DNA of 64,000 nt from contig CAJTDE010000008.1 in the NCBI GenBank assembly GCA_910574835.1, forward strand, positions 1-64,000, read 5' to 3'. Made by a program: the position numbers and the translations under genes. Positions 10,291-53,717 of this stretch are shown here, in pieces. Position 1 is the stretch's first letter. Each line of letters starts with the position of its first letter. The stretch is from Clostridia bacterium. Its GTDB lineage: Bacteria > Bacillota > Clostridia > Lachnospirales > Lachnospiraceae. The notes under the pieces are model-generated. The model ran no database searches. It was not told the DNA's origin and was given only the letters and a program-made list of their open reading frames with translations.

Positions 10291-10327
10291 CATAGTCCGG
10301 CTGAGAAATGTTAAGTGTTTATAGAAA

Positions 10328-10386
10328 CATTACATGTGTGCCGAAGGGACTTTACCCTTTAGTGCTGTCGCGCAGCGACTATAATA
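10328..10386 (+). repeat. Element A, copy 1 (3' half only), directly upstream of fkp
   Basis: This 59-base stretch matches the right half of the elements at 30968-31091 and 38950-39067: CATTACA, GTGTGCCGAAGG, ACTTTACCCTTTAGTGC, then the small hairpin GTCGC-GCA-GCGAC and TATAATA. The left arms are absent, so the outer stem cannot form. As in the other copies, the ribosome binding site (AGGAG) follows immediately, and the fkp ATG lies at 10396. Confidence 0.8.
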
Positions 10387-10395
10387 GGAGAGAAT

Positions 10396-13300
10396 ATGAA
10401 GCCACAGAAAATGAAAAATCTTTTTTTGCGTCAAAGCTATCAGGACGCGTGGGAAGAGTATGAAAAATCTCTGACAAAAAAATACTTTATCCACTGGGAT
10501 TATGTTATTTTGACAGCGTCCAATGAGGAGCAGGCAGCCGCGTATCAGGCTCAGATAGACGCCAGGCTTGTTCAGGGGAGGCTTCCGTCTCATACCGTAT
10601 ATAAGGTATTGCCGGACCCGGAAGGGAAGCGTGTGGGTTCCGGAGGGGCAACCTTTCATGTGATGAAATATATCAGCGATCAGTGTGAAGAGGAGCATTG
10701 CTTTCGGAATAAAAGAATTTTGGTGATTCATTCCGGCGGGGATTCCAAGAGGGTTCCTCAGTATTCGGCCTGCGGCAAGCTCTTTTCCCCGGTACCCCGT
10801 GAGCTGCCGGACGGACGCCGTTCCACCCTGTTCGATGAATTTATAATCGGAATGTCAGGGATGCCGGCACGCTTTAAGGAGGGAATGCTGGTATTGTCCG
10901 GCGATGTACTCTTGCTTTTCAATCCTCTGCAGGTGGATGTGGCTTTTCATGGAGCGGCGGCTGTCTCAGTGAAGGAGAACGTGGAGACCGGAAAGGATCA
11001 CGGAGTATTCTTAAGTGACGACCAGGGAAATGTGGGAAATTTCCTGCATAAGCAGAGTATCGAAGAGCTGCGCCGCCTTGGAGCTGTGAATAGTCAGAAT
11101 GCGGTGGATCTGGACACAGGGGCGATTCTGCTGGACTGCGATCTGCTGGAAAGCTTATTTGGCCTTATTGGGGAAAAAGGAAGAGTTGTTCCGGAAAAAT
11201 ACGGGCGCTTTGTAAATGAAAAAGCGCGTATCAGCTTTTACGGAGACTTTTTGTATCCGTTGGCTTCAAAGGCAACCCTGGAGCAGTATTTGGAGGAAAA
11301 AGCGGAAGGGGAGATGTGTCAAGAGCTTTTGGCCTGCCGCCGCAGGATTTGGGAGGCTATCAGTTCCTATTCCCTAAAGCTTGTTTGTCTGTCGCCGGCC
11401 AGATTTATACATTTTGGCACTACCGGAGAGCTGCTCGGGCTTTTGACTGAGGAGATTGATAATTACGAATTTTTAGACTGGCGGGGACAGATCTTCGGAG
11501 TGGAGGAGAATCCCGGCGCATGTGCCTACAGTAACAGTTATATTGAGAAGAATACGAAAATTGACGCCTCCTCTTATATTGAGGACAGCTATATTTATGA
11601 AGGAACCCAGGTGGGAAGCCGCTGTGTGATCGCAGCTGTGACCTTGAGGGGAGAACGGGTTCCCGATGGTACGGTCTTACATGGATTGAAGCAGAAAGAT
11701 GGTTCTTTTGTAATACGGGTATATGGTGTGAATGATAATCCCAAGGAAACCCTGGAGCAGCAGAGCGCTTTTTTGGGAGGAACCTTAAAGGGCTTTCTTG
11801 ATACGGCCGGGCTAAAGCAGAAGGATGTGTGGAGAGGTGAGGAGCATTATCTGTGGAACGCTGCTTTATACCCCGTATGCGATACCATTGGAGAGGCGGT
11901 AGAGTCCGCCATGCTGATTTTGGATCTGGCTGCGGGAAGGAATGAGCGTGCAGGGGAGTATCGGGCTATGAAGCGGCTCAGCCTGCAGGAAAGCTTTGAG
12001 ATGGCGGATATCCAGGAGATTGCCGCCTGGCAGAGTAAGCTGAATACACAGGTGCGGATTACCCGGTTTCTGCTGGCGCTTGAGGAGCGTAAGAGCATTT
12101 CGGAAGCAGCGGCGGTATTCGGAAGCCAGGGCTTGACAGGGGTTCAGCTTGAAAGGCTTAAGGAAATCGCGGAGCAGTCCGAATTTGGACTTCGTATGCG
12201 CCTGTATTACTATCTGTCCAGGATGACAAAGGGACATGAAAGCGAAGAACTGGAGGATAAGTGCTTCCGCTATATCTGTGACAGCCTCTATGATGCAAGC
12301 ATTGGAAGAACGCCCACGGAAATAAGCTATCATATTACAAAGGATGAGGTAAAGGCAGAGCTTCCGGTGCGGGTTAATTTCGGAGGGGGCTGGTCGGATA
12401 CGCCGCCCTACTGTGTGGAACACGGGGGGACCGTGCTCAATGCTGCGGTGAAGCTGAACGGAATACTGCCGGTTGTGGTAACTGTGCGGAGGATTGACAA
12501 GCCCTGTATTGCTCTTGCCAGTACGGATCTTGGAGCTTATGAGGAATTTACGGATATCGGGCGCTTAAGAAGCTGCCGCGATCCTTTTGATACGTATGCC
12601 TTGCATAAGGCCGCTCTGCTGGCCTGTGGAATTGTGCCGCTTAAGGAGGAGTTAACCTTTGAAGCGCTTTTGGAAAGACTGGGAGGAGGACTGTATCTTT
12701 CTACGGCAGTTATGGGGATTCCCAAAGGCTCCGGTCTTGGCACAAGCAGCATTTTGGCGGGGGCTTGCGTGAAAGCGATCTTTGAATATATTGGCAAGAA
12801 GGTCACGGAAAATGATCTGTATACCCATGTGCTGTGTATGGAGCAGCTTATGAGTACCGGAGGCGGCTGGCAGGATCAGGTCGGGGGCCTTACGGACGGA
12901 ATCAAGCTTGCTTCTACAAGGCCCGGATTGCTGCAGGAGATTCAGGTAGAGCATTTGGCAATGCCGAAAGCGGCTGTGGAAGAACTACAGGAGCGGTTTG
13001 TCCTTATTTATACCGGGCAGCGCCGTCTGGCCAGGAATCTGTTAAGAGAGGTTGTGGGAGGCTATATCGGCTCCAATCCCAATTCCATTGAAGTTCTCTA
13101 CGAGATTCAGAGAACTGCGGTCCTGATGAAGTTTGAGCTGGAAAAGGGAAATATTGACGGCTTTGCGGAGCTTTTGGAACAGCACTGGGAGCTGTCAAAG
13201 CGTCTGGACGGGGGCAGTACCAATACATGTATAGATCAGATTTTCCTAAGCTGCCAGGATCTGCTGGCGGCCCGGATGATCTGCGGAGCCGGCGGAGGTG

Positions 13301-13416
13301 GCTTCTTGCAGGCGGTTCTGAAAAAAGGATGCACGAAGGAAGAGCTGCGCGCTCGTATCCGCAGCGTCTTCCAGGACAGCGGCGTAGATGTGTGGGATTG
13401 TGAGATTGTTTTTTGA
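10396..13416 (+). CDS. fkp: Bifunctional L-fucokinase / GDP-L-fucose pyrophosphorylase
   Basis: Makes GDP-L-fucose from free L-fucose by the salvage route. The N-terminal pyrophosphorylase half has GSGGATFHV (residues 81-89) and HSGGDSKRVPQYSACGK (112-128). The C-terminal half is a GHMP kinase: PVRVNFGGGWSDTPP (about 657-671), GIPKGSGLGTSS (about 774-785) and GAGGGGFLQAV near residue 964. At 1006 residues it is slightly longer than Bacteroides Fkp. An element A half-copy occupies its leader. With the divergent fucosyltransferase it implies fucosylation of a surface glycan using host- or diet-derived fucose. Confidence 0.9.
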   Translation: MKPQKMKNLFLRQSYQDAWEEYEKSLTKKYFIHWDYVILTASNEEQAAAYQAQIDARLVQGRLPSHTVYKVLPDPEGKRVGSGGATFHVMKYISDQCEEEHCFRNKRILVIHSGGDSKRVPQYSACGKLFSPVPRELPDGRRSTLFDEFIIGMSGMPARFKEGMLVLSGDVLLLFNPLQVDVAFHGAAAVSVKENVETGKDHGVFLSDDQGNVGNFLHKQSIEELRRLGAVNSQNAVDLDTGAILLDCDLLESLFGLIGEKGRVVPEKYGRFVNEKARISFYGDFLYPLASKATLEQYLEEKAEGEMCQELLACRRRIWEAISSYSLKLVCLSPARFIHFGTTGELLGLLTEEIDNYEFLDWRGQIFGVEENPGACAYSNSYIEKNTKIDASSYIEDSYIYEGTQVGSRCVIAAVTLRGERVPDGTVLHGLKQKDGSFVIRVYGVNDNPKETLEQQSAFLGGTLKGFLDTAGLKQKDVWRGEEHYLWNAALYPVCDTIGEAVESAMLILDLAAGRNERAGEYRAMKRLSLQESFEMADIQEIAAWQSKLNTQVRITRFLLALEERKSISEAAAVFGSQGLTGVQLERLKEIAEQSEFGLRMRLYYYLSRMTKGHESEELEDKCFRYICDSLYDASIGRTPTEISYHITKDEVKAELPVRVNFGGGWSDTPPYCVEHGGTVLNAAVKLNGILPVVVTVRRIDKPCIALASTDLGAYEEFTDIGRLRSCRDPFDTYALHKAALLACGIVPLKEELTFEALLERLGGGLYLSTAVMGIPKGSGLGTSSILAGACVKAIFEYIGKKVTENDLYTHVLCMEQLMSTGGGWQDQVGGLTDGIKLASTRPGLLQEIQVEHLAMPKAAVEELQERFVLIYTGQRRLARNLLREVVGGYIGSNPNSIEVLYEIQRTAVLMKFELEKGNIDGFAELLEQHWELSKRLDGGSTNTCIDQIFLSCQDLLAARMICGAGGGGFLQAVLKKGCTKEELRARIRSVFQDSGVDVWDCEIVF

Positions 13417-18196: not shown

Positions 18197-19060
18197 ATGA
18201 AAAAGATTATGATTACAGGCTGCAATGGGCAGTTAGGACGGGCAGTTAATCAGCAGTATGCAGGAAGCATGGAATATGAGCTGGTGAATACGGATGTAGG
18301 AGAGCTGGATATCACAAAGATTGAGGATGTGCTGGCGTTTACCAGAGAGGTAAAGCCATGTGCCATTATCAACTGCGCTGCCTATACCAATGTGGACAAG
18401 TGTGAGACAGAGGTGGATCTGGCATACAAGATCAACGCAATCGGCGCAAGAAACCTTGCCATTGCCGCTACGGATGCAAAGGCAAAGCTTATGCATATTT
18501 CTACGGATTATGTGTTTTCGGGGGATGTCTGCGAGAAGCCGCTTATTGAGTTTGATACGCCGAAACCCAAAAGTATGTATGGCGCTACAAAGCTGGCGGG
18601 AGAGCAGTTTGTTCGCGATTTTGCGGAGCGGTATTTTATTATCCGAACAGCTTGGCTGTATGGAGACGGTCACAATTTTGCAAAAACTATGCTGAAGCTT
18701 TCTGAGACAAATTACACCATCGGCGTTGTGATGGATCAGGTGGGAACGCCTACCAGCGCTGCGGAGCTTGCAAAGGCGGTAAAATATCTTTTGCCCACAG
18801 ATAACTATGGTCTGTTTCACGGTACCTGCGAGGGAGATACCAACTGGGCGGAGTTTGCCAAGACAGTTCTCAGGCTGGCAGGGAAGAAAACGGAGATCGA
18901 GCCTATCACGACAGAAGAGTATAAGCGCCGTTTTCCGGCTTCCGCAGATCGGCCGGCTTACTCGATTTTAGAGAATTATATGCTGAAGCTGACAACGGAC
19001 TTTACCTTTGCCAGCTGGCAGGATGCTATTGAGGTATATATGAAGGAATTGGAACTGTGA
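18197..19060 (+). CDS. rfbD: dTDP-4-dehydrorhamnose reductase
   Basis: Last step of dTDP-L-rhamnose synthesis, NADPH-dependent. An SDR fold with ITGCNGQLGRAV (GxxGxxG), NCAAYTNVDKCE, STDYVFSG, YGATKLAGE (Y-x3-K) and a C-terminal RPAYSILEN. ATG 18197 is preferred over upstream ATGs because AAGGAG lies 6 bases before it. The rfbA, rfbB and rfbC partners are not in the window and must lie elsewhere. The gene's presence indicates that rhamnose enters a polymer made from this region. Confidence 0.92.
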   Translation: MKKIMITGCNGQLGRAVNQQYAGSMEYELVNTDVGELDITKIEDVLAFTREVKPCAIINCAAYTNVDKCETEVDLAYKINAIGARNLAIAATDAKAKLMHISTDYVFSGDVCEKPLIEFDTPKPKSMYGATKLAGEQFVRDFAERYFIIRTAWLYGDGHNFAKTMLKLSETNYTIGVVMDQVGTPTSAAELAKAVKYLLPTDNYGLFHGTCEGDTNWAEFAKTVLRLAGKKTEIEPITTEEYKRRFPASADRPAYSILENYMLKLTTDFTFASWQDAIEVYMKELEL

Positions 19061-19123
19061 TGGTTCTTTCCATATAGGTGCATAAGAAGAGAGTTTACGG
19101 GACTGAAATAGGAGAAATGCCTG

Positions 19124-23022: not shown

Positions 23023-23066
23023 GCCTTTGCAGGCGAGCAAAACTTATGATATGGATATAGCAGATA

Positions 23067-23101
23067 AAACCGTGCCGGAGAGAAGCTTTCGGCACGGTTT
23101 T
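23067..23101 (+). terminator. Rho-independent terminator after the VapD-like pair
   Basis: AAAACCGTGCCG pairs with CGGCACGGTTTT across an 11-base loop and is followed by T-rich sequence. Confidence 0.8.
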
Positions 23102-23145
23102 ATAATTGAGAAGAAAACTTAATGAATTACTAAGAAATGGATTTA

Positions 23146-23174
23146 TTGTCAATTATTTTTGTATGTGGTACAAT
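23146..23174 (+). promoter_or_regulatory. Promoter of the orphan membrane protein gene
   Basis: TTGTCA (23146-23151), a 17-base spacer and the extended -10 TG-G-TACAAT (core 23169-23174), about 80 bases before the TTG start. Confidence 0.65.
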
Positions 23175-23252
23175 TGGAACGACAATATAAAACAGATAAG
23201 ATATTATCCTTCATAAGGGATATTGGATTTTTAAATTGGGGAGGGATATAAA

Positions 23253-24965: not shown

Positions 24966-24990
24966 TGTTAAATATAGGAGGAACTTTGAT

Positions 24991-26241
24991 ATGGGAAAAT
25001 GCTACAGTGATGAGGTAGAGCAGGCGTTGCGGTATATCTATTACGATCTGCGCGCAGGAAAAGGAGCGGAAGGGCTGGCCCTTCTTGAGAAGGCTTCCGC
25101 AGCAGGAGACGGGGATGCTTCCTGTATCCTGGCACGATGCTACTGCGGGCCGCAGTACGTGTGGAGCGGACACAATTTCCCGGAGGATGACGACAAGGTG
25201 GTTTCTCTGATTCACAAAGCTGTGGAGCAGGGAAGCGGAATCGGCGTCTTGGTGGCAATGCGTACCGGAGAGCTGACGCCTTCTCTGGAAAGGAAAATGG
25301 GCTTTGCCAATCTTCAGGAGGCTTTTGACAGTGTGCTTGAAAAAGCGGAGATGGGAGATGCTTTCAGCCAGTATACGGCGGCAAACGCATATTTTTGGTG
25401 GGATTTCCTGCGTATTCAGGGAAAAGGACGGGAATCTTTTTCCACTGACAGCGAATTTAAAGCCTATTTACGGGAAAATATATCAAAATGTGAGGACCTG
25501 TTCCAGAAGGCGTTCCGGGGCGGTATGTATTTTGCGGCAAATAATCTGAACAAATATTATTCGGAGGGCGATGAGGACTTGATTGCGCCCCGTCCGGAGC
25601 TGGCAAAGGATCTGTACAAGACAGGGGCGGAGAGGGGATTCCCTATTCATCAATGGTTCTATGCGGATGAACTGTATGATGCCGAACAGTTTCAGGAGGC
25701 CGTTCACTGGTATAAGCTGGGAGCGGAGGGCGGCCAGCTGGAGTGCTGGTTCCGAATCGGCCTGATATACGAGGAAGGCAAGGGGGTTGCAAAGGACCCG
25801 GCTTATGCGGCCCAGTGCTATGAAAAGGGCCTGGCACAGAAGCAGGACAGCGGCAAACGGATCGGCTGTGCAAACCGCCTGGGCGCTTTGTATTATGACG
25901 GCAACGGAGTGGAGAAGGACTATGCCAAGGCATTCCAGCTTCTGAAATATGCATACGATCACGACAACAACTGGGGAGTCTGCTATCTTGGAAAATTGTA
26001 TTTCCGGGGATGGGGAACGCAGCAGGATTACGGTAAGGCGAGAGAGCTTTTAGAGAAAGTGAACTGGAATAACCTGGAGGCCTTTTATATGCTGGGCGTT
26101 ATCTACGGACAGGGTCTCGGCGTGCCGGAAGATATCAAGAAAGGCGTGGAATATCTCCAGAAGGCCGGCAGCAATGAGGAGGCCAAGAAGGAGCTTTTGA
26201 AATATAAAAAGACCTTATTTGGAAAATGGGTACGCCGGTAA
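24991..26241 (+). CDS. Sel1-like repeat (SLR) protein
   Basis: A 416-residue protein made of roughly 36-residue alpha-alpha repeats of the Sel1/TPR class, clearest at GLIYEEGKGVAKDPAYAAQC, GALYYDGNGVEKDYAKAFQL, GKLYFRGWGTQQDYGKAREL and GVIYGQGLGVPEDIKKGVEY. No signal peptide is visible, so it is probably cytoplasmic. SLR proteins act as protein-protein adaptors. ATG 24991 is set by the AGGAGG before it. It is co-directional with the orphan membrane protein and the MBOAT gene. Confidence 0.88.
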   Translation: MGKCYSDEVEQALRYIYYDLRAGKGAEGLALLEKASAAGDGDASCILARCYCGPQYVWSGHNFPEDDDKVVSLIHKAVEQGSGIGVLVAMRTGELTPSLERKMGFANLQEAFDSVLEKAEMGDAFSQYTAANAYFWWDFLRIQGKGRESFSTDSEFKAYLRENISKCEDLFQKAFRGGMYFAANNLNKYYSEGDEDLIAPRPELAKDLYKTGAERGFPIHQWFYADELYDAEQFQEAVHWYKLGAEGGQLECWFRIGLIYEEGKGVAKDPAYAAQCYEKGLAQKQDSGKRIGCANRLGALYYDGNGVEKDYAKAFQLLKYAYDHDNNWGVCYLGKLYFRGWGTQQDYGKARELLEKVNWNNLEAFYMLGVIYGQGLGVPEDIKKGVEYLQKAGSNEEAKKELLKYKKTLFGKWVRR

Positions 26242-26253
26242 AGAGGAACTTAT

Positions 26254-27678
26254 ATGGCATCTGATATTATGCTGACCCTCTTGTTTCTGGGAGCGGCGCT
26301 TGTAATTTATTACCTGGCGCCCTCCCGGATAAGGTGGGGGATTCTCCTTGCAGCAAGCCTGATTTTTTATGCAAGCGCTTCCGTATGGATGCTGCTGCTT
26401 ACGGGCATTTCAGCCTGTTGGTCCTGGTTTGCAGGAGGAAGGATAGAAGAGATACACATAGAAAAAGGCAAGAGAGGCTGGCTGCTGTTAGGCATCCTGC
26501 CTCTTCTTGGCGTTCTTTTTGTATTTAAATATTTTAATTTTTTCAGCGCATCCGTGGCTTCTCTTTTGGCCCTGGCAGGACTTCCGGCCGATCCCCTTGT
26601 GCTGAAACTGATGCTTCCCCTGGGAATTTCCTATTACACCTTTAAAATGATAAGCTATCTGGCGGATATCTATCTGGGAAAAAGATCTTCCGAGCCTTAT
26701 GTGGGATATTATGTAACCTATGTGCTGTTTTTTCCCCAGATTCTTTCGGGACCTATTGAGCGGTCCGAGGGCTTTTTGGAGCAGCTTCACAGGGGATTGT
26801 ATTATGACAGCGGGCTTTTTGCGGAAGGGATTCAGAGGATTATTCTTGGGCTTTTCAAGAAAATGGTGATTGCCAACCGCCTGGGCGGATATGTGGATAC
26901 AATATTTGCCTCTCCGGGAGACTATCCGGGGCTGGCGGCAGTAATGGCGGCATTTTTTTACTCCTTTCAGCTCTACTGTGATTTTTCCGGATATTCGGAT
27001 ATTGCCATTGGCATGGGGGAGCTGCTGGGGATTCGCAGCAGGCAGAACTTCCGCTGTCCCTACTTTGCGCGGAATATCCGGGACTTCTGGAATCGCTGGC
27101 ATATTTCCCTGTCAAGCTGGCTTAGGGACTATGTGTACATTTCTCTGGGAGGAAGCCGTGTGTCCAAGGCGAAGCGGGGACGGAATGTGCTGCTGACCTT
27201 TCTGGCAAGCGGACTTTGGCATGGAGATAATTGGACCTTTGTGGCGTGGGGCGGTATACATGGGGTATGGAATCTGTTTTGCCGGAAAAAAAGGGCGGAG
27301 GCAGCCGGGCCTGTCAGGGTGCTGCGACAGACATTGGCGACGTTTTGCGGCGTTACCCTTGGGTGGGTATTCTTTCGGGCCGAAAGCTTATCGGCGGCGG
27401 TTTTTTACCTTCGGCGGGCGGTTTTCGGATTTTCGCTTTCCGTGACGGATATTCAGAACTCCATTCTGCCTTTTACGGGGGACAATACCTGTGCGGCCTA
27501 TTTTCTGACGGTTTGCCTGTTTTTGCTTCTTCTGTTTCTCTATGAGTGGGGACAGGTTTACGGGAAGGGGAGGGATAAAGAGTTTTCCCTTTCCGGGATC
27601 TGGATGACGGTTATGGGGCTTAGTGTTGCCCTATTCGGCGTGTTCGGGGCTTCCGGGTTTTTATATGCGCAGTTTTAA
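26254..27678 (+). CDS. MBOAT family O-acyltransferase (copy 1)
   Basis: A 474-residue AlgI/DltB-type membrane protein. It shows FPQILSGPIERSEGFLEQL, YCDFSGYSDIAIGMGELLGI, FWNRWHISLSSWLRDYVYI and the active-site SGLWHGDNWTFVAWGGIHG (His in WHG and in IHG). It transfers acyl groups from the cytoplasm to surface polysaccharide. The next gene encodes an SGNH-like partner, the usual two-component arrangement. A second such pair lies at 41237-43683. Confidence 0.93.
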   Translation: MASDIMLTLLFLGAALVIYYLAPSRIRWGILLAASLIFYASASVWMLLLTGISACWSWFAGGRIEEIHIEKGKRGWLLLGILPLLGVLFVFKYFNFFSASVASLLALAGLPADPLVLKLMLPLGISYYTFKMISYLADIYLGKRSSEPYVGYYVTYVLFFPQILSGPIERSEGFLEQLHRGLYYDSGLFAEGIQRIILGLFKKMVIANRLGGYVDTIFASPGDYPGLAAVMAAFFYSFQLYCDFSGYSDIAIGMGELLGIRSRQNFRCPYFARNIRDFWNRWHISLSSWLRDYVYISLGGSRVSKAKRGRNVLLTFLASGLWHGDNWTFVAWGGIHGVWNLFCRKKRAEAAGPVRVLRQTLATFCGVTLGWVFFRAESLSAAVFYLRRAVFGFSLSVTDIQNSILPFTGDNTCAAYFLTVCLFLLLLFLYEWGQVYGKGRDKEFSLSGIWMTVMGLSVALFGVFGASGFLYAQF

Positions 27679-27681
27679 GCG

Positions 27682-27760
27682 GGAATAAAACAGTGATATC
27701 CTTACTACACATACCTCAATTTATTGGAAAAGGTTATTGCGGAACTGGAATGAAATAAGT
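27682..27760 (+). repeat. Element B-like leader between the MBOAT and SGNH genes
   Basis: GGGAATAAAACAGTGATATCCTT (27681-27703) and the partly complementary AAGGTTATTGC-GGAACTGGAA (27730-27750) enclose about 26 bases. The same sequence pattern precedes the nucleotidyltransferase gene at 53718. Confidence 0.45.
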
Positions 27761-30967: not shown

Positions 30968-31091
30968 GGTAAAGTCGCAAAGGCGCACGAGAGAAACTTT
31001 TATGAGTGCCCTTTCGAATAAAAGTTTCTCTCATTACAGGCGTGTCGAAGCGACTTTACCCTTTAGTGCCGTCGCGCAGCGACTATAATAG
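30968..31091 (+). repeat. Element A, copy 2 (full), upstream of the HisC-like gene
   Basis: The outer stem GGTAAAGTCGC (30968-30978) pairs with GCGACTTTACC (31050-31060); the inner 15-bp stem GAGAGAAACTTTTAT (30989-31003) pairs perfectly with 31018-31032 over the loop GAGTGCCCTTTCGA; the tail hairpin GTCGC-GCA-GCGAC (31071-31083) runs into TATAATAG and then the AGGAGG of the next gene. About 124 bases in all; no reading frame and no target-site duplication noted. Confidence 0.85.
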
Positions 31092-31106
31092 TAGGAGGAA
31101 ATGCTC

Positions 31107-32171
31107 ATGAGCTATTATGTAGATGAAAATATAAAAAACACCCTTCGTATTTTCCCGGAACAGGGAAGGTATGATTACCACCGTTTTGATATGAATGAGA
31201 ACCCCGAGGGACTTCCCAAGAGCTTTGTGGATTCCGTGCTGAAGGAGATAACGCCGGAGTTCCTTTCCATCTATCCGGAGCCGGAACGGTTTATTCGCAA
31301 ATATACGGAATATGTTTCCGGCCTTTCCGCGGAAAATGTGCTGCCAACCAATGGTTCGGACATGGCGATCCGGTATCTACTGGAAACCTTCGGGGAAAAG
31401 GGCAAAGAGGTTGTGACGGTAGCTCCTTCCTTTGAAATGTACTGGGTCAATTGCAGCATCCTGGGTCTTAAGCATGTGCCGGTAGCCTATGAAAAGGATT
31501 TGACTATTCGCATTGAAAAGATTGTGGAGGCAGTCACAGAGAACACCAGGGTAGTCGTACTGCTGAATCCCAATAACCCGGTGGGCAATGTCTATACGGA
31601 GGAAGAGCTTCAGCAAGTAATTGAAAAGGCCCGCAAGGTGGGGGCCGTTGTGATAATTGACGAAGCATATCATTATTTTTATGATAAAACCTTTATAAAA
31701 TACGCAGTATCCGGAGATAATGTGATAGTATTGCGCACCTTCTCTAAGCTGATGTCTTTGGCGGCCTGCAGGCTGGGCGTAATTATCAGCAATCCGCAGA
31801 TTATCGGCTATGTAAAAAATGCAAAGCTTACCTTTGATGTGAACTCTATCGCACTTCTGTTTGGGGAACGGATTTTGGAACATCCGGAGCTGATAGAGGA
31901 GCTGATTCAAAAGGAAAAGGAAGGAAAGGAATATACCCTGGATGTCCTTCGAAAATCCGGCTACTGGTGCCAGGACTGCAGGGGGAATTTTATCTTTGTG
32001 AAGCCGAATCAGAATGCCCGGGCTTTGGTGCAGCGTTTGAAGGAAGAAAAGCGGATATTAGTGCATGCCTATGGAAATGAGCTTTTGAAGGATTTGCTGC
32101 GGGTATCCGTAGGCTCAAAAGAAGCAATGCAGATTTTCCTGGACGGATTTTTGGATTTGGATAAAGCTTAA
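31107..32171 (+). CDS. HisC-like PLP-dependent aminotransferase (polysaccharide context)
   Basis: A 354-residue fold-type I enzyme with NPNNPVG (154-160), DEAYHYF (185-191, PLP Asp) and TFSKLMSLAACRLG with the Schiff-base Lys214 and phosphate-binding Arg222. The region reads like histidinol-phosphate aminotransferase or CobD-type decarboxylases. A separate, standard hisC lies at 57622, and the next genes encode a TagD-like cytidylyltransferase fusion and a TagF-like polymerase. It may therefore make an amino-alcohol phosphate (such as serinol- or ethanolamine-phosphate) for a surface polymer. ATG 31107 has the better AGGAGG spacing. Confidence 0.78.
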   Translation: MSYYVDENIKNTLRIFPEQGRYDYHRFDMNENPEGLPKSFVDSVLKEITPEFLSIYPEPERFIRKYTEYVSGLSAENVLPTNGSDMAIRYLLETFGEKGKEVVTVAPSFEMYWVNCSILGLKHVPVAYEKDLTIRIEKIVEAVTENTRVVVLLNPNNPVGNVYTEEELQQVIEKARKVGAVVIIDEAYHYFYDKTFIKYAVSGDNVIVLRTFSKLMSLAACRLGVIISNPQIIGYVKNAKLTFDVNSIALLFGERILEHPELIEELIQKEKEGKEYTLDVLRKSGYWCQDCRGNFIFVKPNQNARALVQRLKEEKRILVHAYGNELLKDLLRVSVGSKEAMQIFLDGFLDLDKA

Positions 32172-32264
32172 TGGATATGCTGATATAAGATGAGCTTGTT
32201 CGGGCAAAAGGCGGCGCCGGGTTTGTTTAGGCGCTGTTTGCAGGAAGAAAGAGGAGAAGCAGAT

Positions 32265-33614
32265 ATGGTAAAGGTAATTACATATGGAACCTATGATTTG
32301 CTGCACTACGGCCATATCCGGCTTTTGGAACGTGCAAAGGCGCTGGGAGATTATCTCATTGTGGGCGTGACCACAGATGATTTTGACAAAACCAGGGGAA
32401 AGATCAATGTACAGCAGCCCCTTATGGAACGGGTAGAGTCCGTAAAAGCTACCGGCATTGCGGATGAGATTATCATAGAAGAATATGAGGGGCAGAAGAT
32501 TGATGATATCCGGCGGTACGGTGTGGATATTTTTACGGTAGGTTCCGATTGGGAAGGAAAGTTTGATTATCTGAAGGAATACTGTAAGGTTGTATATCTG
32601 GAGAGGACGCAGGGAATCTCCAGCACGGAGGTCCGCAGTCATCAGCAGGAGCTTCGTCTCGGGCTGGTAGGGGAATTTGCCATGCTCAATACGGTGGGGC
32701 AGGAGAGCAGCTATGTGAACGGTCTGTCTGCCAGCAGTGTTTATACGGAGGACAGCTCCCGGCTTTCCAAACAGCTGAAGGAGCTGATTACCGAAAAGAC
32801 CTACGAAGGTTTTCTGGGGGATGTGGATGCCGTCTATATTGCCTCTCGCCCGGAAAAGCATTATGAACAGGTGAAGCAGGCGCTTGAACAGGGAAAGCAT
32901 GTATTGGTGGAATCTCCGGTGACGCTTGAAAGAACCCGGTGTAAGGAACTGCTGGAACTGGCGGAGAAGAAGAACCGGATTTTAATGGAATCCATTAAGA
33001 CCGCCTATGCAACAGCCTACAGCCGGCTTCTCTTACTGATAAAGAGTGGAAAAATCGGAAGCGTGGTTTCTGTGGATGCCACCTGTACCAGTCTAAGAGA
33101 GATTGGGGAAGACGGGATGGCGGAACAGAGTGCGTGGAGCAGCATTTGTGAGTGGGGACCGGTAGCCATGCTTCCTATCTTACAGATTCTGGGGGCGAAT
33201 TATGAAGAGAAGCGGATTGTCTCCCATCTTATCAAAAGTCCGGCAGACACCGTAAAGTTTGACGCCTTTACAAAAATTGATTTTGTATATCCGGAGGCGG
33301 TTGCTTCCCTAAAGGTCGGAAAAGGCGTAAAATCAGAGGGAGAGCTGATTGTCTCCGGAACAAAGGGCTACGTTTATGTTCCGGCGCCCTGGTGGAAAAC
33401 AGATTATTTTGAAATCCGTTATGAAAATCCGGCGGATAACCAACGCTATTTTTACCAGCTGGATGGAGAGGGGCTGCGGTATGAGCTGGTGACTTTTTTA
33501 AAGTCGATTCGTATGGGAAAGGATATGTCCTATGTGGACAAAGAGATTACGGCAGTTATTGCAGGGCTGATAAGTGACTTTGAGAATGGAGTAGATATGA
33601 AAACCATTCTTTAG
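32265..33614 (+). CDS. Fusion of TagD-like cytidylyltransferase and Gfo/Idh/MocA-like domain
   Basis: A 449-residue two-domain protein. Residues 1-128 are a glycerol-3-phosphate cytidylyltransferase-type domain with HYGH (14-17, the HxGH motif) and RTQGISST (114-121). Residues about 131-449 are Gfo/Idh/MocA-like, but the Rossmann glycine motif reads LGLVGEFAMLN and the EKP signature reads ESP (216-218), so the usual catalytic Lys is missing. It probably makes a CDP-polyol or CDP-amino-alcohol; the second domain may bind the substrate rather than oxidise it. ATG 32265 follows GAGGAG. Confidence 0.85.
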   Translation: MVKVITYGTYDLLHYGHIRLLERAKALGDYLIVGVTTDDFDKTRGKINVQQPLMERVESVKATGIADEIIIEEYEGQKIDDIRRYGVDIFTVGSDWEGKFDYLKEYCKVVYLERTQGISSTEVRSHQQELRLGLVGEFAMLNTVGQESSYVNGLSASSVYTEDSSRLSKQLKELITEKTYEGFLGDVDAVYIASRPEKHYEQVKQALEQGKHVLVESPVTLERTRCKELLELAEKKNRILMESIKTAYATAYSRLLLLIKSGKIGSVVSVDATCTSLREIGEDGMAEQSAWSSICEWGPVAMLPILQILGANYEEKRIVSHLIKSPADTVKFDAFTKIDFVYPEAVASLKVGKGVKSEGELIVSGTKGYVYVPAPWWKTDYFEIRYENPADNQRYFYQLDGEGLRYELVTFLKSIRMGKDMSYVDKEITAVIAGLISDFENGVDMKTIL

Positions 33615-33616
33615 AA

Positions 33617-33665
33617 GAAAAAGGCATAGCGGGAGCAAATCAATCCTGCCAATGCCTTTTGTTCC
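33617..33665. terminator. Bidirectional terminator between convergent genes
   Basis: AAAAAGGCATAGCGGGA and its near-complement TCCTGCCAATGCCTTTT form an imperfect stem flanked by an A tract on the left and a T tract on the right, so it can serve both the fusion gene and the minus-strand TagF-like gene. Confidence 0.75.
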
Positions 33666-34825
33666 TATTTTTTGCCGTTATGGTATTCAAGAATCAGGTC
33701 AGCTACGGCTTCGGAGGCATGTCCGTCATCATAGAATTGCAACATATCCCGAAATTCCTTACAGCCTTTTTCATAAGCCTCCTCATCAAAAGCTTCGATT
33801 TGCTCCATAAGCTCTTCGTTGGAGAGCGCCAGAGTGAAAGGAAGCTCTTTCAGATCGAAATAATAGTCCTTTGTCCGCTTCATTTCTTCATAATCCTCAG
33901 CGTACAGAAAGCCGGGCTTCCCGATCATGGGAAAATCAAAGGCACAGCCGGAATAGTCGCTGATAATAATATCGGAGGCAACCAGCAGCTCCTGCATATT
34001 CTCGTAAGGGCTGGCATTCAGAATCCGCTCCGTGTAAGTAAGAGGATAGTCTTGATAGCTTACATTCGGATGCATCCGCACCAGCACGGCCCAGGTTCCG
34101 CCAAAGCGTTTTTTCAGCGACAATAAAAGCTGCTCATAGTTTAGATTATACATGTCTGTTTTGCGGCTGTCCCGATAGGTAGGGGCATAGAGAGCAAGCT
34201 TTGTATCGGAGGGCAGGGAAAAATGCTTTAAAACTTTTTCGCGGTAGGGGGCCGGGTCCTCAAAGTAAATATCATTTTTAGGGATACCCTTTTGGAGAAT
34301 GGGGCCGTCATACCAGAAGGATTCCTGATAGGAATCATACTCCCACTTGCAGCAAACCAGCAGCAGATCTATATTTTGGGAGTCAATTTTGGCATAGTTG
34401 ACATATTCCCGGCTTAAAGCAGCTTCACAATCCTTTTCCACTTTTTTTAGACCCAGACCGCCGTGCCAAGTTTGGATATAAAACTGCCCCGGACGCTTTT
34501 TGAAATAATACAGCTTGCGGGTATCGTCCACCCAGGTTCCGGCTGTGGCCATATGAAAGGCAAAGGCCGCTGTGTTGGGACGAAGAGGAAGAATCCCTTT
34601 TGGAAGATTGTAATCAGAGGCTGACACCCAATACAGCTTGAGATCCAAACCGCGTTTTAGAAATTCCTGCGCAATAAATTTGGGATTGTCCCCATAGCCG
34701 CCGCCGTTGAAGTTGCTGAATATAATCTTTCTCCGATCAAGAGGGAGAAAAACAAACAGGTTCCAACATATCTTCATATACAGTCGATGAAGGGCCAGGT
34801 AGACAGGAAGTATGAATTTTTTCAT
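33665..34825 (-). CDS. CDP-glycerol:poly(glycerophosphate) glycerophosphotransferase family protein
   Basis: A 386-residue GT-B protein of the TagB/TagF type. It shows IIFSNFNGGGYGDNPKFIAQE, YIQTWHGGLGLKKVEKD (catalytic His region), ALYAPTYRDS and SDIIISDYSGCAFDFPM near the C-terminus. It transfers polyol-phosphate units from a CDP donor, so it is the natural user of the product of the convergent cytidylyltransferase fusion. ATG 34825 is preferred; AAGGAGG lies about 11 bases upstream. The substrate may not be glycerol. Confidence 0.85.
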   Translation of the reverse strand: MKKFILPVYLALHRLYMKICWNLFVFLPLDRRKIIFSNFNGGGYGDNPKFIAQEFLKRGLDLKLYWVSASDYNLPKGILPLRPNTAAFAFHMATAGTWVDDTRKLYYFKKRPGQFYIQTWHGGLGLKKVEKDCEAALSREYVNYAKIDSQNIDLLLVCCKWEYDSYQESFWYDGPILQKGIPKNDIYFEDPAPYREKVLKHFSLPSDTKLALYAPTYRDSRKTDMYNLNYEQLLLSLKKRFGGTWAVLVRMHPNVSYQDYPLTYTERILNASPYENMQELLVASDIIISDYSGCAFDFPMIGKPGFLYAEDYEEMKRTKDYYFDLKELPFTLALSNEELMEQIEAFDEEAYEKGCKEFRDMLQFYDDGHASEAVADLILEYHNGKK

Positions 34826-34916
34826 AGAAAAGGGGGCCTCCTTGTTAAACTTTTGCAATAAATTTCCTTTATTTTAGCATTTTGGCAAAAGAATGTGAAG
34901 TATGAAAAATATTCCT

Positions 34917-34944
34917 TTGACTTTTTGGAAAAATGTGTTATATT
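34917..34944 (+). promoter_or_regulatory. Promoter of rho
   Basis: TTGACT (34917-34922), a 16-base spacer and TATATT (34939-34944). The resulting leader is about 150 bases long. Confidence 0.65.
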
Positions 34945-34960
34945 TTAGGGTAGAGTAGGT

Positions 34961-34976
34961 GTCATCAATTGATGAC
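34961..34976. promoter_or_regulatory. 16-base perfect palindrome in the rho leader
   Basis: GTCATCAATTGATGAC lies about 10 bases after the expected rho transcription start. It could be an operator, or the stem of a leader hairpin used in autoregulation. This is a sequence observation only. Confidence 0.5.
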
Positions 34977-35106
34977 ATGGAAGTAAAAGGATTTCTGTTT
35001 CAAATATGCCAAATGATTCTGGCAGGGATTCCCAAGATAAATAAAAAATGTTTCATGATAGATACGTTTTGGAGAAAAGACAGAATGAGAAAATAGGAGG
35101 ATTAGA

Positions 35107-36501
35107 ATGACAAGAGAGCAATATGCGTCCCTTCCGCTTTCGGAGCTGAAAGAGATTGCGAAAGCGAGAGGCTTGAAGGGCACTTCTACTATGAAAAAAG
35201 GGGATCTGATTCAGCTGATGCTGGATAAAGATGAGGAAGGCAGCGCCCAGAAGAGCACGGAGAAGCAGGAACGGACGGAACGAACGGAAAAAACCGAGAG
35301 AACGGAGCGCCCGGAACGGACAGCAGAGAGGGCGCCGGCCGAACGTCCGGGAGTTCAGGATATGTCGCAGCTGGACAGCGGACAAGTTGCCAATGGAATT
35401 TTAGAGGTTTTGGCGGATGGCTACGGCTTTATCCGCAGCGCCAATTATCTTCCGGGAGAAAATGATATCTATATCAATCCGGCTATGATTCGGCGCTATA
35501 ATTTGAAAACAGGCGATATTCTTTGCGGTAATATCAAGGTGCGCAGCCAGACGGAGAAGTTTGCCGCGCTCTTGTATCTGAAAACAGTGAACGGATATCG
35601 GCCGGAGGAAGCGGCCAGAAGAAGAAACTTTGAGGATTTGACGCCTATTTTCCCAAATTCACGGATTCATCTGGAGCGTCCGGGGGGAAGTATGGCCATG
35701 CGTATTATGGATTTGATATCTCCCATCGGTAAGGGGCAGCGCGGTATGATCGTGTCTCCGCCGAAAGCAGGTAAGACGACTTTGCTGAAGGACGTAGCCA
35801 AATCAATTACAAAGAACCATCCGGAGATGCAGCTTTTGATTCTTCTGATTGATGAGCGTCCGGAGGAGGTTACGGATATCCGCGAAGCCATTGCGGGACC
35901 GAATGTGGAAGTAATCTACTCCACCTTTGACGAGCTTCCGGAGCATCACAAGCGGGTGTCGGAGATGGTAATTGAACGTGCAAAGCGTTTGGTGGAACAT
36001 AAAAAAGATGTTGTTATACTGCTGGACAGTATTACAAGACTGGCAAGAGCCTATAACCTGACCGTGCCCCCCAGCGGACGTACCTTATCCGGCGGTTTGG
36101 ACCCGGCAGCTCTGCATATGCCTAAGCGTTTCTTCGGCGCGGCCCGGAATATGCGCGAAGGCGGAAGCTTAACCATTTTGGCTACCGCTCTGGTAGAAAC
36201 CGGCAGCAAGATGGATGATGTAATCTACGAGGAGTTTAAAGGAACGGGCAACATGGAGCTGGTATTGAACCGTAAGCTTCAGGAAAAGCGTGTATTCCCG
36301 GCCGTGGACATCCCGAAATCAAGTACCAGACGAGAGGATCTTCTGCTTACGCCGGAAGAACTGGAGGCTATTGATACGGTCCGCAAGGGACTTAACGGGC
36401 TGAAGGCGGACGAGGCGGTGGAGAATATTCTGAATCTCTTTGCCCGCACACGATATAACAGCGAATTTGTGCAAACAGCCAAAAAGACAAAATTCATCTA
36501 A
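35107..36501 (+). CDS. rho: Transcription termination factor Rho
   Basis: An RNA-dependent ATPase hexamer that ends transcription. The N-terminal Rho-N SAP-like region ([20 protein letters not shown]) is followed by a Glu/Arg/Thr-rich low-complexity insert (about residues 46-78, built of RTE/KTE repeats), then the RNA-binding cold-shock-like domain and the ATPase with Walker [12 protein letters not shown] (217-227) and the [15 protein letters not shown] box. Length (464) exceeds the shortest Rho proteins because of the insert. AGGAGG precedes ATG. First gene of the rho-rpmE-DUF1385-prmC-prfA block. Confidence 0.97.
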
Positions 36502-36507
36502 AAATGC

Positions 36508-36536
36508 TTGAAATGCCTATTTTTTTATGATATAAT
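36508..36536 (+). promoter_or_regulatory. Promoter of rpmE
   Basis: TTGAAA (36508-36513), a 17-base spacer and TATAAT (36531-36536), only a few bases after the rho stop. Confidence 0.75.
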
Positions 36537-36537
36537 T

Positions 36538-36674
36538 TATAAGCTGTCTGTATGGACAGGGAACTGTAGGGACTTGCAGGGATAGCTCAGGGAAGCTTGC
36601 TGTGGAAATATCGGAGCAGCATTGACTGAGAATGGAAGAGCGAAGTTCACAAATATGAAGAAGAGGTGAAAATC
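36538..36674 (+). promoter_or_regulatory. Candidate L31 leader RNA
   Basis: About 130 untranslated bases separate the promoter and ATG, with a GCTGTCTGTATGGACAGGGA-type stem-loop at 36542-36561 and several G-rich segments. Ribosomal protein L31 leaders are known in Firmicutes; I infer autoregulation from length and position only. Confidence 0.4.
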
Positions 36675-36878
36675 ATGAAGGAAGGAATCCATCCGTCTTA
36701 TTACCAGGCAACCGTAACCTGTAACTGCGGCAATACATTTGTGACAGGTTCCACAAAGAAAGATATTCATGTTGAAATCTGCTCCAAGTGTCACTCATTC
36801 TACACAGGACAGCAGAAGGCAGCGGCAGCCCGCGGACGTATTGATAAGTTCAATCGTAAATATGGTATCAACAAATAA
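36675..36878 (+). CDS. rpmE: 50S ribosomal protein L31
   Basis: A 67-residue L31 of the zinc-binding type, with Cys16, Cys18, Cys36 and Cys39 (CNC...CSKC) and the [11 protein letters not shown] opening. GAGGTG lies 6 bases before ATG 36675, which I use instead of the upstream GTG 36666. It lies between rho and DUF1385 as in many Clostridia. Confidence 0.96.
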
Positions 36879-36966
36879 GAATGTGTAAGTCAGGGGTGAG
36901 GTTGGAAAATCTCGCCCTGTTTTACTATCCGGATCTTATATGCGGATGGTATTACGGAGGAAGAAC

Positions 36967-38130
36967 ATGAAGAAAGTATGCAAATCTTCAGGTATCGGAG
37001 GGCAGGCCGTACTGGAAGGCATTATGATGAAAAATCAAGAGGTCTATTCCATTGGCGTGCGCAAACCGGACGGAGAGATTGAGGTAAATTTAAGTACCCA
37101 TGAAGGGATTGGAAATAAAAAGCTGAAAAAGGTACCGATTATCCGGGGAGTGATTAATTTTATAGATTCTCTGGTATTGGGTATGAAGTGCCTGACCTTT
37201 TCCGCCAGCTTTTATGACGAGGAGGAGGCACGGCCTTCCAAAACGGATGTTGTGCTGCAGAAGGTTTTTAAGGAGCGGGCGGAAAAAGTTGTAATGGGAG
37301 TAACCGTAGCCTTTTCGATTGTCATTGCGATAGCTATTTTTATGATATTACCCTACTATCTTGCAGATATTCTGCGTCAGTATATTGTATCCGATACGGT
37401 ACTGGCGGTTGTGGAGGGAGCAATCCGGCTTCTTTTGTTTATTAGCTATGTGCTTCTGATTTCCAGGATGAAGGATATACAGCGGGTATTTCAGTATCAC
37501 GGTGCGGAGCATAAATGTATTAATTGTATAGAGACAGGGCTGGAACTTAACGTTGAAAATGTTCGGAAAAGCTCGAAGCATCACAGACGCTGCGGAACAA
37601 GTTTTATGCTGATTGTTATGGTGATCAGTATTATATTCTTTATTTTTATTCGGGTGGATTCGCCGATTCTGCGAGTTGTCTACCGAGTAGCCCTTGTTCC
37701 TGTGATTGCAGGCGTATCTTATGAATTTATCCGGTTTGCAGGCAACACAAACAATCTGCTTATACGGATTTTGAGCATTCCGGGTATGTGGCTGCAGGCA
37801 CTGACTACAAAAGAACCGGATGATGATATGATAGAAGTGGCCATTGCGGCTGTGGAAGCAGTCTTTGACTGGCGGGCTTATCAGGGAAGAAGCGAGGAGA
37901 ATCCGCTGGAGGCAGAGGTTTTTGTAGAGGAAGAAGCAAAAGAGACGGAGGAACAGACACAAGAGGAGACGGCGAAAAAAGAGGAAGAGGCAGAGGCACC
38001 TGCCTTGGAAAAGGAGCCGGAACAGACAAAAGAGCCGGCAGAAGATAATGAATCAGCCGAAGAAGCCGCTTCTGATAAAGAGGCGGATGAGCTGCAGGAT
38101 ATTGAAGATATTCTGGAGGCAAAGGAATGA
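36967..38130 (+). CDS. DUF1385 family membrane protein
   Basis: A 387-residue protein with SSGIGGQAVLEGIMMKN at the N-terminus, several transmembrane segments (about residues 95-125, 140-165, 205-240) and HGAEHKCINCIETG, the Cys/His core of DUF1385 (QueT-like or SLC-like role unknown). The last 80-90 residues are an unusually long Glu/Lys/Ala-rich tail (EEEAKETEEQTQEETAKKEE). It overlaps prmC by four bases (ATGA). Confidence 0.9.
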   Translation: MKKVCKSSGIGGQAVLEGIMMKNQEVYSIGVRKPDGEIEVNLSTHEGIGNKKLKKVPIIRGVINFIDSLVLGMKCLTFSASFYDEEEARPSKTDVVLQKVFKERAEKVVMGVTVAFSIVIAIAIFMILPYYLADILRQYIVSDTVLAVVEGAIRLLLFISYVLLISRMKDIQRVFQYHGAEHKCINCIETGLELNVENVRKSSKHHRRCGTSFMLIVMVISIIFFIFIRVDSPILRVVYRVALVPVIAGVSYEFIRFAGNTNNLLIRILSIPGMWLQALTTKEPDDDMIEVAIAAVEAVFDWRAYQGRSEENPLEAEVFVEEEAKETEEQTQEETAKKEEEAEAPALEKEPEQTKEPAEDNESAEEAASDKEADELQDIEDILEAKE

Positions 38131-38954
38131 CACTCTTGGAAGCCTGTTTATATGGAGAGAAAAGGCTTAAGGAGGCAGGCGTTCCGGAAGCAAAGCTCAA
38201 TGCATGGCTTCTCCTGGAATATGCGAGCGGATGTACCAGAAGCCACTATTTGGCCTATCAGGAGGAAGTGCTGCCGGCGGAAGCGGAGCGGCAGTTTTTA
38301 GAAGCGGCAGAGCGCCGGAGTAAGAGGGAACCGCTGCAGTATATTACCGGAATACAGGAGTTTATGGGACATTCTTTTTTGGTCAGCGATCAAGTATTGA
38401 TTCCGCGGCAGGATACGGAACTTCTGGTGGAGGAAGCGCTTATGTATCTAAAGCCGGGGATGAAGTTCCTGGATCTGTGTACCGGTTCGGGATGTATCCT
38501 GCTCAGTATATTGAAGGGGTGCCCGGGCGTTATTGGCGTAGGCTCGGATATCTCGGCAGGCGCCTTGAAGGTTGCGCAGAAGAACCAGGAGCGTTTGGAA
38601 CAGGAGGCGGTGCTGCTGCAAAGCGATCTGTTTGAGAAGATAGAAGGTTCCTTTGATCTGATTGTTTCCAATCCGCCTTATATCAGGAGCGGAGAGATTC
38701 CGAAGCTTATGGAAGAGGTACGTGATTTCGAGCCTGTAACCGCGCTTGACGGCCGTGAGGACGGCCTGTATTTTTATCGAAGGATTGCAGAAGAAAGCAG
38801 CGCTTACTTAAAGGCAGGCGGAAGGCTGTATTTGGAGATTGGATACGATCAGGGATCTTTGGTTTCGGAGCTTTTGGGAGAACAAGGATTTTGTGAGATA
38901 GAGGTAAAAAAGGATTTGGCCGGTCTGGACAGGGTAGTGAAAGGACGCAGGTAA
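38127..38954 (+). CDS. prmC: Peptide chain release factor N5-glutamine methyltransferase
   Basis: Methylates the Gln of the GGQ motif in release factors. The C-terminal SAM domain shows LDLCTGSGCILLSIL and VSNPPYIRSGEIP (NPPY), and the N-terminal helical domain contacts the release factor. Its target, prfA, is two genes on. The TAA stop lies in the first bases of element A copy 3 (GGTAAAG), so the element abuts or supplies the stop codon. Confidence 0.95.
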   Translation: MTLLEACLYGEKRLKEAGVPEAKLNAWLLLEYASGCTRSHYLAYQEEVLPAEAERQFLEAAERRSKREPLQYITGIQEFMGHSFLVSDQVLIPRQDTELLVEEALMYLKPGMKFLDLCTGSGCILLSILKGCPGVIGVGSDISAGALKVAQKNQERLEQEAVLLQSDLFEKIEGSFDLIVSNPPYIRSGEIPKLMEEVRDFEPVTALDGREDGLYFYRRIAEESSAYLKAGGRLYLEIGYDQGSLVSELLGEQGFCEIEVKKDLAGLDRVVKGRR

Positions 38955-39067
38955 AGTTGCAAAGGCGTACGAGAGGAACTTTCATGAGTGCTCTTTCGAA
39001 TAAAAGTTTCTCTCATTACAGGTGTGTCGAAGCAGCTTTACCCTTTAGTGCCGTCGCGCAGCGACTT
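38950..39067 (+). repeat. Element A, copy 3 (full), between prmC and prfA
   Basis: The outer stem GGTAAAGTTGC (38950-38960) pairs with GCAGCTTTACC (39032-39042); the inner stem GAGAGGAACTTTCAT (38971-38985) pairs with 39000-39014 over the loop GAGTGCTCTTTCGA; the tail hairpin GTCGC-GCA-GCGAC is at 39053-39065. Relative to copy 2, one outer-stem pair changes from C-G to T-A and its neighbour from T-A to T-G, preserving pairing. AGGAGG of prfA follows within 10 bases. Confidence 0.85.
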
Positions 39068-39084
39068 AAAATAGGAGGAACAGG

Positions 39085-40158
39085 ATGTTTGATAAATTAG
39101 AAGATCTGCTGTTACGATTTGAGGATGTGATGAATGAGCTGAATGAGCCGTCTGTGGTAAATGATCAGGAGCGGTTCCGGAGGCTTATGAAGGAGCAGAA
39201 CGATTTGCAGCCCATTGTAAATGCCTACACAGAATATAAAAAGTGTAAAGATACGGTAGAAGAGAGTCTCCAAATGCTGGAAGAGGAAAATGATGAGGAG
39301 ATGCGCGAGATGCTCAAAGAGGAGCTTGGCGGAGCAAAGGAGCGCATAGGTGAGCTGGAGCATGAGATGAAGATTCTTCTTCTCCCCAAGGACCCCAATG
39401 ACGACAAGAATGTAATTGTGGAGATACGCGCAGGCGCAGGAGGCGACGAAGCGGCTCTGTTTGCGGCAGAGATATATCGTATGTATGTGCACTATGCGGA
39501 AGGCCGCCGCTGGAAGGTTGAGGTAATGGAGGCTGACGAGATCGGCATAGGCGGAATGAAAAGCGTTACCTTCATGATCAATGGGCAGGGAGCTTACTCC
39601 GTGATGAAATACGAGTCCGGCGTACATCGTGTACAGCGCGTTCCGGAGACAGAGTCCGGCGGGCGGATTCATACCTCCACGATCACTGTGGCGGTGATGC
39701 CGGAGGCGGAAGAGGTGGATGTACAGATAGATGACAAGGACATCCGCATTGACGTTATGCGTGCGTCCGGAAACGGCGGCCAGTGTGTCAACACCACGGA
39801 CTCAGCAGTGCGTCTTACACACTATCCCACGGGTATTGTGGTATACAGCCAGACGGAAAAGTCCCAGCTTCAAAATAAAGCGAAGGCATTCGCCCTGCTT
39901 CGTGCAAAGCTCTATGATATTGAGTGTCAGAAGGCCCATGATGCGGAGGCGGAGGCGCGCAGAAGCCAGATAGGAACGGGAGATCGTTCCGAGAAAATCC
40001 GGACCTATAATTTTCCCCAGGGTCGTGTGACAGATCATCGCATCGGTTTGACCCTCTATAAGCTGGATAAGATTATGAATGGGGATATTCAGGAGATTAT
40101 AGATGCCTGCATAGCAGCCGATCAGGCAGCCAAGCTTTTAAAGATGAATGAAGAGTAG
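39085..40158 (+). CDS. prfA: Peptide chain release factor 1
   Basis: Recognises UAA and UAG. It has the GGQ catalytic motif (residues 231-233 in [18 protein letters not shown]), the [20 protein letters not shown] recognition region and a C-terminal [16 protein letters not shown]. Length 357 is normal. Its leader consists of element A copy 3. It overlaps the next frame only by open reading frame extension; the real acyltransferase start is downstream. Confidence 0.97.
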
Positions 40159-53599: not shown

Positions 53600-53708
53600 G
53601 GAATAAAAAACAGTGATATCTCCCAAAGCTGACAGACACAGAATATTTGTGACCGGAAGCATTTCATGCTTGTGTACTTTGAGAGATATTGCAGAACCGG
53701 AATAGGAG
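53600..53708 (+). repeat. Element B-like leader upstream of the nucleotidyltransferase gene
   Basis: GGAATAAAAAACAGTGATATCTC (left arm core 53611-53622) pairs imperfectly with GAGATATTGCAG (53683-53694), followed by AACCGGAATAGGAGG, the ribosome binding site. A small inner hairpin AAGCAT-TTC-ATGCTT lies within. The flanking patterns recur at 27682 and 20084. Confidence 0.5.
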
Positions 53709-53717
53709 GTACAGGGT

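Follow-up and report, generated by a model that had tools for sequence, protein, structure and literature searches.

Element A, a structured repeat inserted immediately before Shine-Dalgarno sequences in a gut Clostridia bacterium

Why would three unrelated genes of one bacterium carry the same folded sequence directly in front of their ribosome binding sites? The question is raised by a 64,000-nucleotide stretch of DNA (hereafter the window) from a gut bacterium of the Lachnospiraceae (Clostridia bacterium, assembly GCA_910574835.1, contig CAJTDE010000008.1, positions 1 to 64,000). In it, copies of a repeat that we call element A precede a HisC-like aminotransferase gene, prfA and a fkp-like gene. 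An earlier note, made from the window alone, had correctly named these three gene contexts and had proposed a small non-coding family, mobile or structured. We followed the repeat through the host genome (G000; 5.01 Mb in 133 contigs) and related genomes. The comparisons show precise, one-way insertion, anchored at the Shine-Dalgarno (SD) sequence, of a structured element without coding sign. We lean towards reading A, with a sister family B, as a non-autonomous, SD-directed mobile structured RNA element that becomes a leader. The M1 module of A, family B and the SD itself as the insertion point were absent from the earlier note.

Position at the Shine-Dalgarno and empty sites

The 3' end of element A is fixed, and a 29-base motif of its tail was used to count copies. 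With at most three mismatches allowed, the host genome held 185 matches, as against none for a reversed-pattern control; the window held three, as against none in 100 shuffles. In the loci read, 220 distinct tails were classed, the counts referring to tail-bearing copies. In 125 cases the tail led into an SD and the start codon of a frame open for 50 codons or more, the SD starting 6-7 nt past GCGAC in 110 of them. Another 81 tails adjoined a further copy, either of A (63, that is, 42 + 17 + 4) or of B (18); when the remaining 14 were inspected by eye, five preceded A copies and one a B copy. We also started from the target: of the 536 AGGAGG hexamers in 476,602 bp of host sequence, 180 were SD-like and 34 of these had A or B, while none of the 356 others did. 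The insertions share one orientation relative to the downstream gene, and in the one divergent A pair observed (C1:366 kb) each copy stands before its own gene.

Three pairs of empty and filled sites showed that insertion is precise and immediately 5' of the SD. The empty site gagtttttac^aggagg (locus L078) corresponds in the host (L210) to the same flank followed by 166 nt and the tail TTAAAAT; cgctgtaa^aggagg in G002 is filled in the host at L208; and aaaacat^gggagag in G005 is filled by the fkp copy of the window. No host base was lost in the first two pairs, and one base differs in the third. In addition, a near-precise truncated insert was seen at L057, with three host bases missing.

Orthologous leaders differed among the 16 genomes of the genus. 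The prfA site could be read in 15 of them (G003 was unreadable) and carried A or B in five: A in the host, B in G007, G002 and G012, and the 3' end of B in G013. Neither was detected in G001, G004, G005, G006, G008, G009, G010, G011, G014 and G015, although the G005 leader may contain a decayed remnant. The HisC-like gene had A in the host and G007 and none in G005, G011, G001 and G009, and fkp had A in the host and none in G005, G007 and G011.

Structure of element A

A full element A measures about 173 nt and consists, in order, of M1, M2, CTTTAGTGCC, the tail hairpin GTCGC-GCA-GCGAC and an A/T tail, after which comes the SD. M1 is a 5' hairpin, AGTCC(A/G)GC...GC(C/T)GGAC, and M2 a long hairpin, GGTAAAG...CTTTACC, of three stacked helices. 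The A/T tail is 6-7 nt long in 123 of 136 copies, 94% A+T, and occurs as 48 distinct sequences.

All three copies listed in the earlier note (30968-31091, 38950-39067 and 10328-10386) were found on reading, but the last, described as a half copy, starts at 10294 and is rather an M1 5' module fused to the 3' half through an internal deletion that removed the middle of the long hairpin (Table 1). Direct reading bore out the outer 11-bp stem, the 14-base loop and the tail hairpin, as well as the outer-stem changes from C-G to T-A and from T-A to T-G between the two full copies, with pairing kept. The 15-bp inner stem is perfect in the HisC-like copy, while that of the prfA copy contains a G-T and a C-A. 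The prfA copy was rightly said to begin over the prmC stop codon: its GGTAAAG provides the TAA, and prmC ends at 38954.

Table 1. Copies of elements A and B in the window, with adjoining Shine-Dalgarno sequences and genes
Feature	Position	Strand	Context or score
Element A copy, M2 hairpin and tail hairpin	30968..31084	+	Leader of HisC-like aminotransferase gene; model R2, 138.9 bits
A/T tail and junction ATAAT-AG-T, from tail hairpin to SD, HisC-like copy	31085..31092	+	
SD AGGAGG, HisC-like gene	31093..31098	+	
HisC-like class I/II aminotransferase gene	31101..32171	+	3' of element A
Element A copy, M2 and tail hairpin	38950..39066	+	Between prmC and prfA; 133.2 bits
A/T tail of prfA copy	39067..39072	+	
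SD AGGAGG, prfA	39073..39078	+	
prfA (peptide chain release factor 1)	39085..40158	+	
Element A copy with internal deletion: M1 start, M2 3' arm, tail hairpin, A/T tail	10294..10385	+	Before fkp-like gene; 41.9 bits
SD AGGAGA, fkp-like gene	10386..10391	+	
fkp-like fucokinase / fucose-1-phosphate guanylyltransferase gene	10396..13416	+	
Degenerate element B ending GGAAT	53609..53711	+	Adjoins AGGAGG of gene at 53718; 41 bits
Weak element B match (remnant)	27689..27759	+	30.1 bits
Weak element B match (remnant)	19017..19117	+	Before gene at 19124; 27.8 bits

The pairing is conserved across copies. In A, 97.2% of cells at paired positions were paired and 15 of the 34 pairs had changes on both sides, a result reached in 0 of 500 shuffles (alignment A2 comprised 57 of the 58 full-length copies, one orthologue being omitted). 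For A and B alike, the pair counts were higher than in every slid control and in each of the 500 shuffles, except that the number of pair types in A was equalled by one shuffle. Quasi-palindrome repair could be the source of part of the paired changes. The HisC-like copy had an RNA fold z of -5.3. In A, 123 G-U cells stood against 22 A-C cells, and in B 90 against 18, an asymmetry that suggests folding of the gene-sense strand. The excess in A is confounded, because its unpaired columns favour C-to-T over G-to-A; those of B have the opposite bias, so that the excess in B stands against it. Neither family had an Rfam match at the gathering score (window and eight loci with A or B), and the one match at a loose threshold, to a miRNA, was judged to be chance.

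Collectively, the 185 3' ends, their position upstream of genes, the precise empty sites, the preserved and covarying stems and the lack of coding sign agree with the proposal of a small non-coding, mobile, structured family. The further suggestion of a portable leader or promoter held as to the leader position and failed as to the promoter. The idea of a portable promoter, an intrinsic terminator or a leader-peptide gene seems very improbable to us. TATAATA does end the first two window copies, counting by position as the earlier note had done (the third, before prfA, ends in TTAAAATA), but TATAAT was present in only 7 of 136 SD-flanked copies. The sequence upstream of the HisC-like insertion, including a TATACT-like stretch, is retained in the empty G005 orthologue. 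Stretches of 301 bases around the HisC-like and prfA copies contained no terminator-like site, as the earlier dismissal of a classical terminator had implied, and their only promoter-like site lies inside prfA. As for a peptide, a frame that begins at an ATG in the loop runs for 26 codons or more without a stop in 97 of 109 copies; however, it has no codon-position bias and is broken in 17 of 56 aligned copies (alignment A4 used 56 of 85 rows).

How the element may move, and alternatives

The pathway that we envisage would run as follows. Copies would be transcribed, and a trans-acting reverse transcriptase would copy the sense-strand RNA, with priming at the SD complement, the target being the SD or the CCTCC opposite. 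The element would enter one-way, directly upstream of the SD hexamer in working genes. Its A/T tail would hold the SD unpaired, and most insertions would therefore be tolerated; since the SD and the host flanks stay intact, the element would turn into a transcribed 5' untranslated region or an intercistronic leader. We tentatively favour RNA-mediated copying in view of the sense-strand folding, the leader sites that should be transcribed and the variable short 3' tail. Eukaryotic short and long interspersed nuclear elements (SINEs and LINEs) have a fixed 3' end, a variable short tail and 5'-truncated copies, and SINEs are structured RNAs without their own enzyme. Element A resembles them in all these features; it differs in its bacterial host and in having neither a long poly-A nor long target duplications, and its reverse transcription is putative. 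That A is a bacterial SINE, an enzyme-less structured RNA of mRNA leaders reverse-transcribed at the SD complement, is a tentative idea that we hold possible though doubtful. If true, a translation-initiation signal would serve as an address, and the element would land where it is transcribed without breaking a gene.

A constant 3' end together with frequent loss of 5' sequence, a feature of SINE-like retroelements, was found in the host genome, which has 51 M1 5' ends for its 185 tails. We rejected a longer, autonomous form in which a gene would lie between these ends, as a tail lies close downstream of 50 of the 51 M1 5' ends (at most 152 nt in the loci measured) and the remaining one is a weak match. 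Truncation points past the M2 start were clustered, with 75 at consensus positions 113-149 and 6 at 57-112, as might be expected if a polymerase halted on reaching the hairpin's 3' arm. Yet truncation affected 39 of 50 array-first copies, 38 of 107 single copies and only 4 of 65 array followers. Arrays grow by stacking further copies on the SD side, and the followers are probably the newest copies. Because truncation is common in array-first copies and rare in followers, later loss of hairpins is the simpler source of most truncations, and truncation speaks less strongly for reverse transcription than it would otherwise. At G000:C27:41733-42244 and G000:C9:62209-62623, a 5'-truncated copy was followed by three or four M2-tail units, arrayed head to tail ahead of a single SD.

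Several other observations weigh against SD-directed, RNA-mediated insertion, alongside the rarity in followers of the 5' truncation expected of target-primed copying. No target-site duplication was present in the three empty/filled pairs beyond an ambiguous AG that can be read on either side. About eight of the 220 tails had by eye neither a clear SD and start nor a further copy, and selection against copies elsewhere could contribute to the SD association. At the orthologue of the gene at 53718, G007 retains only the 5' part of B, the 3' part having been lost (no B was detected in G011), and the G-U excess of A may come in part from the C-to-T bias. Moreover, no moving enzyme was identified. 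The only RVT_1 gene of the host (L259:8850-10424, contig C49) encodes a 524-aa reverse transcriptase that scored below the NCBIfam cut-offs of group II, Drt3a, Drt2 and retron St85, and the 19 kb read around it held no match to A or B. RVT_1 was undetected in G012, which has 109 tail matches. The absence of an enzyme from G007, G004 and G012 is soft evidence, because these are draft genomes, 92-97% complete.

A possibility was that A is moved as single-stranded DNA by a Y1/HUH enzyme of the IS200/IS605 or RAYT type, which would cut beside CCTCCT on the antisense strand and recognise the terminal hairpins. Insertion in one orientation, precise and without long target duplication, would suit such an enzyme, and the hairpins at both ends with a 6-7 nt A/T spacer resemble the ends of IS200/IS605. 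Y1_Tnp was found in eight of the 16 genus genomes; it was undetected, however, in G007 with its 121 tail matches and in G004 with its 17, both being drafts of 94-97% completeness. A Y1 transposase or reverse transcriptase beside the copies was likewise rejected, no A or B match being present at the loci scanned for either, including seven Y1 loci (L132, L133, L134, L136, L142, L260 and L261). The G-U to A-C asymmetry also argues against this mechanism, in that it is the sense strand that folds while the constant target would lie on the other strand. We regard it as improbable.

A cis-regulatory mRNA element, acting on translation or mRNA stability, selected at chosen genes and spread by recombination between leaders with SD microhomology as a guide, is in our view unlikely but deserves some weight. 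It would account for the conserved structure of A and B, and a co-directional gene precedes 42 of the 53 host sites. At L243, compared with L076, a new copy stands next to an older one whose A/T tail was retained, which supports such recombination and counts against SD-directed insertion. Blocks of 96-98% identity between the host and G007 (about 98% at window 102-4622 and 23057-27678) amid blocks of 77-92% also suit this explanation; they suggest that the two species have exchanged genes recently. In contrast, orthologous sites differ among congeners, the syntenic comparison gave a single case in which both genomes of a pair had A at the same start, the three window genes that follow the copies are unrelated to one another, and sites previously free of the element became filled.

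Element A was then set against known bacterial repeats, of which the bcr, RU and REP repeats are the closest in kind. The bcr1-bcr18 repeats of the Bacillus cereus group are dispersed and intergenic, often in untranslated regions or operon spacers, some being RNA-structured and bcr1-3 being termed MITE-like (for miniature inverted-repeat transposable element) (PMC3446304). They are alike in their leader or spacer position, while an SD-anchored 3' end like that of A goes unmentioned for bcr in the available text of that source (PMC3446304). The enterobacterial RU elements, mobile intergenic repeats of 103-168 bp, are also termed MITE-like (PMC2759123). Element A is likewise small, mobile and intergenic, but it ends at the SD and lacks the MITE end features tested. 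RU-1 is also known as ERIC. By eye, A has no terminal inverted repeats, its 5' AGTCC(A/G)GC... and 3' ...GCGACTNNNAAT sharing only a 4-bp AGTC/GACT match; we rejected a MITE of a DDE transposon on this ground and for lack of a target-site duplication of several base pairs in the three empty/filled pairs. REP sequences with RAYT, tagged GTAG/CGTC, are high-copy palindromic extragenic repeats thought to be non-autonomous (PMC3733652). Unlike them, A is about 173 nt long with several hairpins, forms head-to-tail arrays and has one orientation to genes. Its consensus ends lack GTAG, its CGTC overlaps a 5-bp tail stem where CGTC repeats have stems of 8-9 bp in the portion of that paper available (PMC3733652), and no Y1 gene was found beside copies, the seven Y1 loci scanned having no A or B match. 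Membership of REP/RAYT was therefore rejected. A survey of non-coding RNAs in 50 genomes judged many-copy structured motifs selfish, a class marked in the available text by inconsistent gene orientation and nearby transposases (PMC11109978); A differs from these candidates in its fixed orientation and in that no transposase neighbour was found.

Many bacteria are known to carry small dispersed repeats, but to our knowledge a family that inserts at the SD itself, in a single orientation, is new. We found no description of an SD-targeted repeat among the top-ranked results of the literature searched, which left preprints outside and covered subscription papers thinly. SD-directed insertion would reveal a safe harbour exploited by a bacterial element and, if RNA-mediated, a bacterial parallel to SINEs. 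For the study of translation, the copies would offer a natural series of leader hairpins that lie a few bases away from the SD, and A and B are two covarying RNA families that could be added to Rfam.

Family B and distribution

Family B shares the insertion site of A, just 5' of the SD. It is a single long hairpin, CAG-arm...arm'-CGGAACTGGAAT, followed by the SD, whose arms diverge widely between copies with complementarity kept: 94.4% of cells were paired and 25 of 33 pairs had changed on both sides (0 of 500 shuffles). Alignment A3 (model R1) used 40 of 60 rows, chance hairpins and degenerate, repeated or cut rows being omitted and two rows re-trimmed. Wholesale compensatory changes in the outer arms were visible at loci including L102, L077, L088, L109 and L171. 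Five B loci could be read in G028 and G223; the element runs up to an SD-like sequence at four of them and is part of an array at the fifth. Homology between M2 of A and B, with a covariance-model E near 3e-5, is only suggestive, because a palindrome scores about as well against the opposite strand of itself. Fragments of 14-18 nt from the B 3' end occur at SDs that are bare in relatives (G007 59568 versus G011; G005 91052 versus the host) and could be either tiny insertions or remnants.

The tail motif was present in 8 of 61 genomes, namely the host, 6 of 15 congeners (9 to 121 matches) and G028 of another genus; Acetatifactor muris DSM 23669, Lachnospiraceae bacteria and metagenome-assembled genomes were carriers among the public-record matches listed, and the host probably belongs in or close to the genus Acetatifactor. 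When 250 genomes of the host's family (249 genera) were searched with covariance models, A was found in two at E <= 1e-8 and B in six, from five genera, at E <= 1e-5; copy counts from these RNA models are lower bounds because 14 candidates were scored per genome. The distribution of A and B across the Lachnospiraceae is patchy. No match supported a plasmid or phage as the home of A. Within the genus, A-positive genomes measured 4.1-5.0 Mb and A-negative ones 2.6-3.7 Mb. Finally, a third repeat, GTGCGGATCAATGAAACACCCTTCGGGTATACCT-like and partly tandem, lies upstream of SD-like sites on the minus strand of host contig C8 near C8:141,400 (L203), and at L213 and L220.

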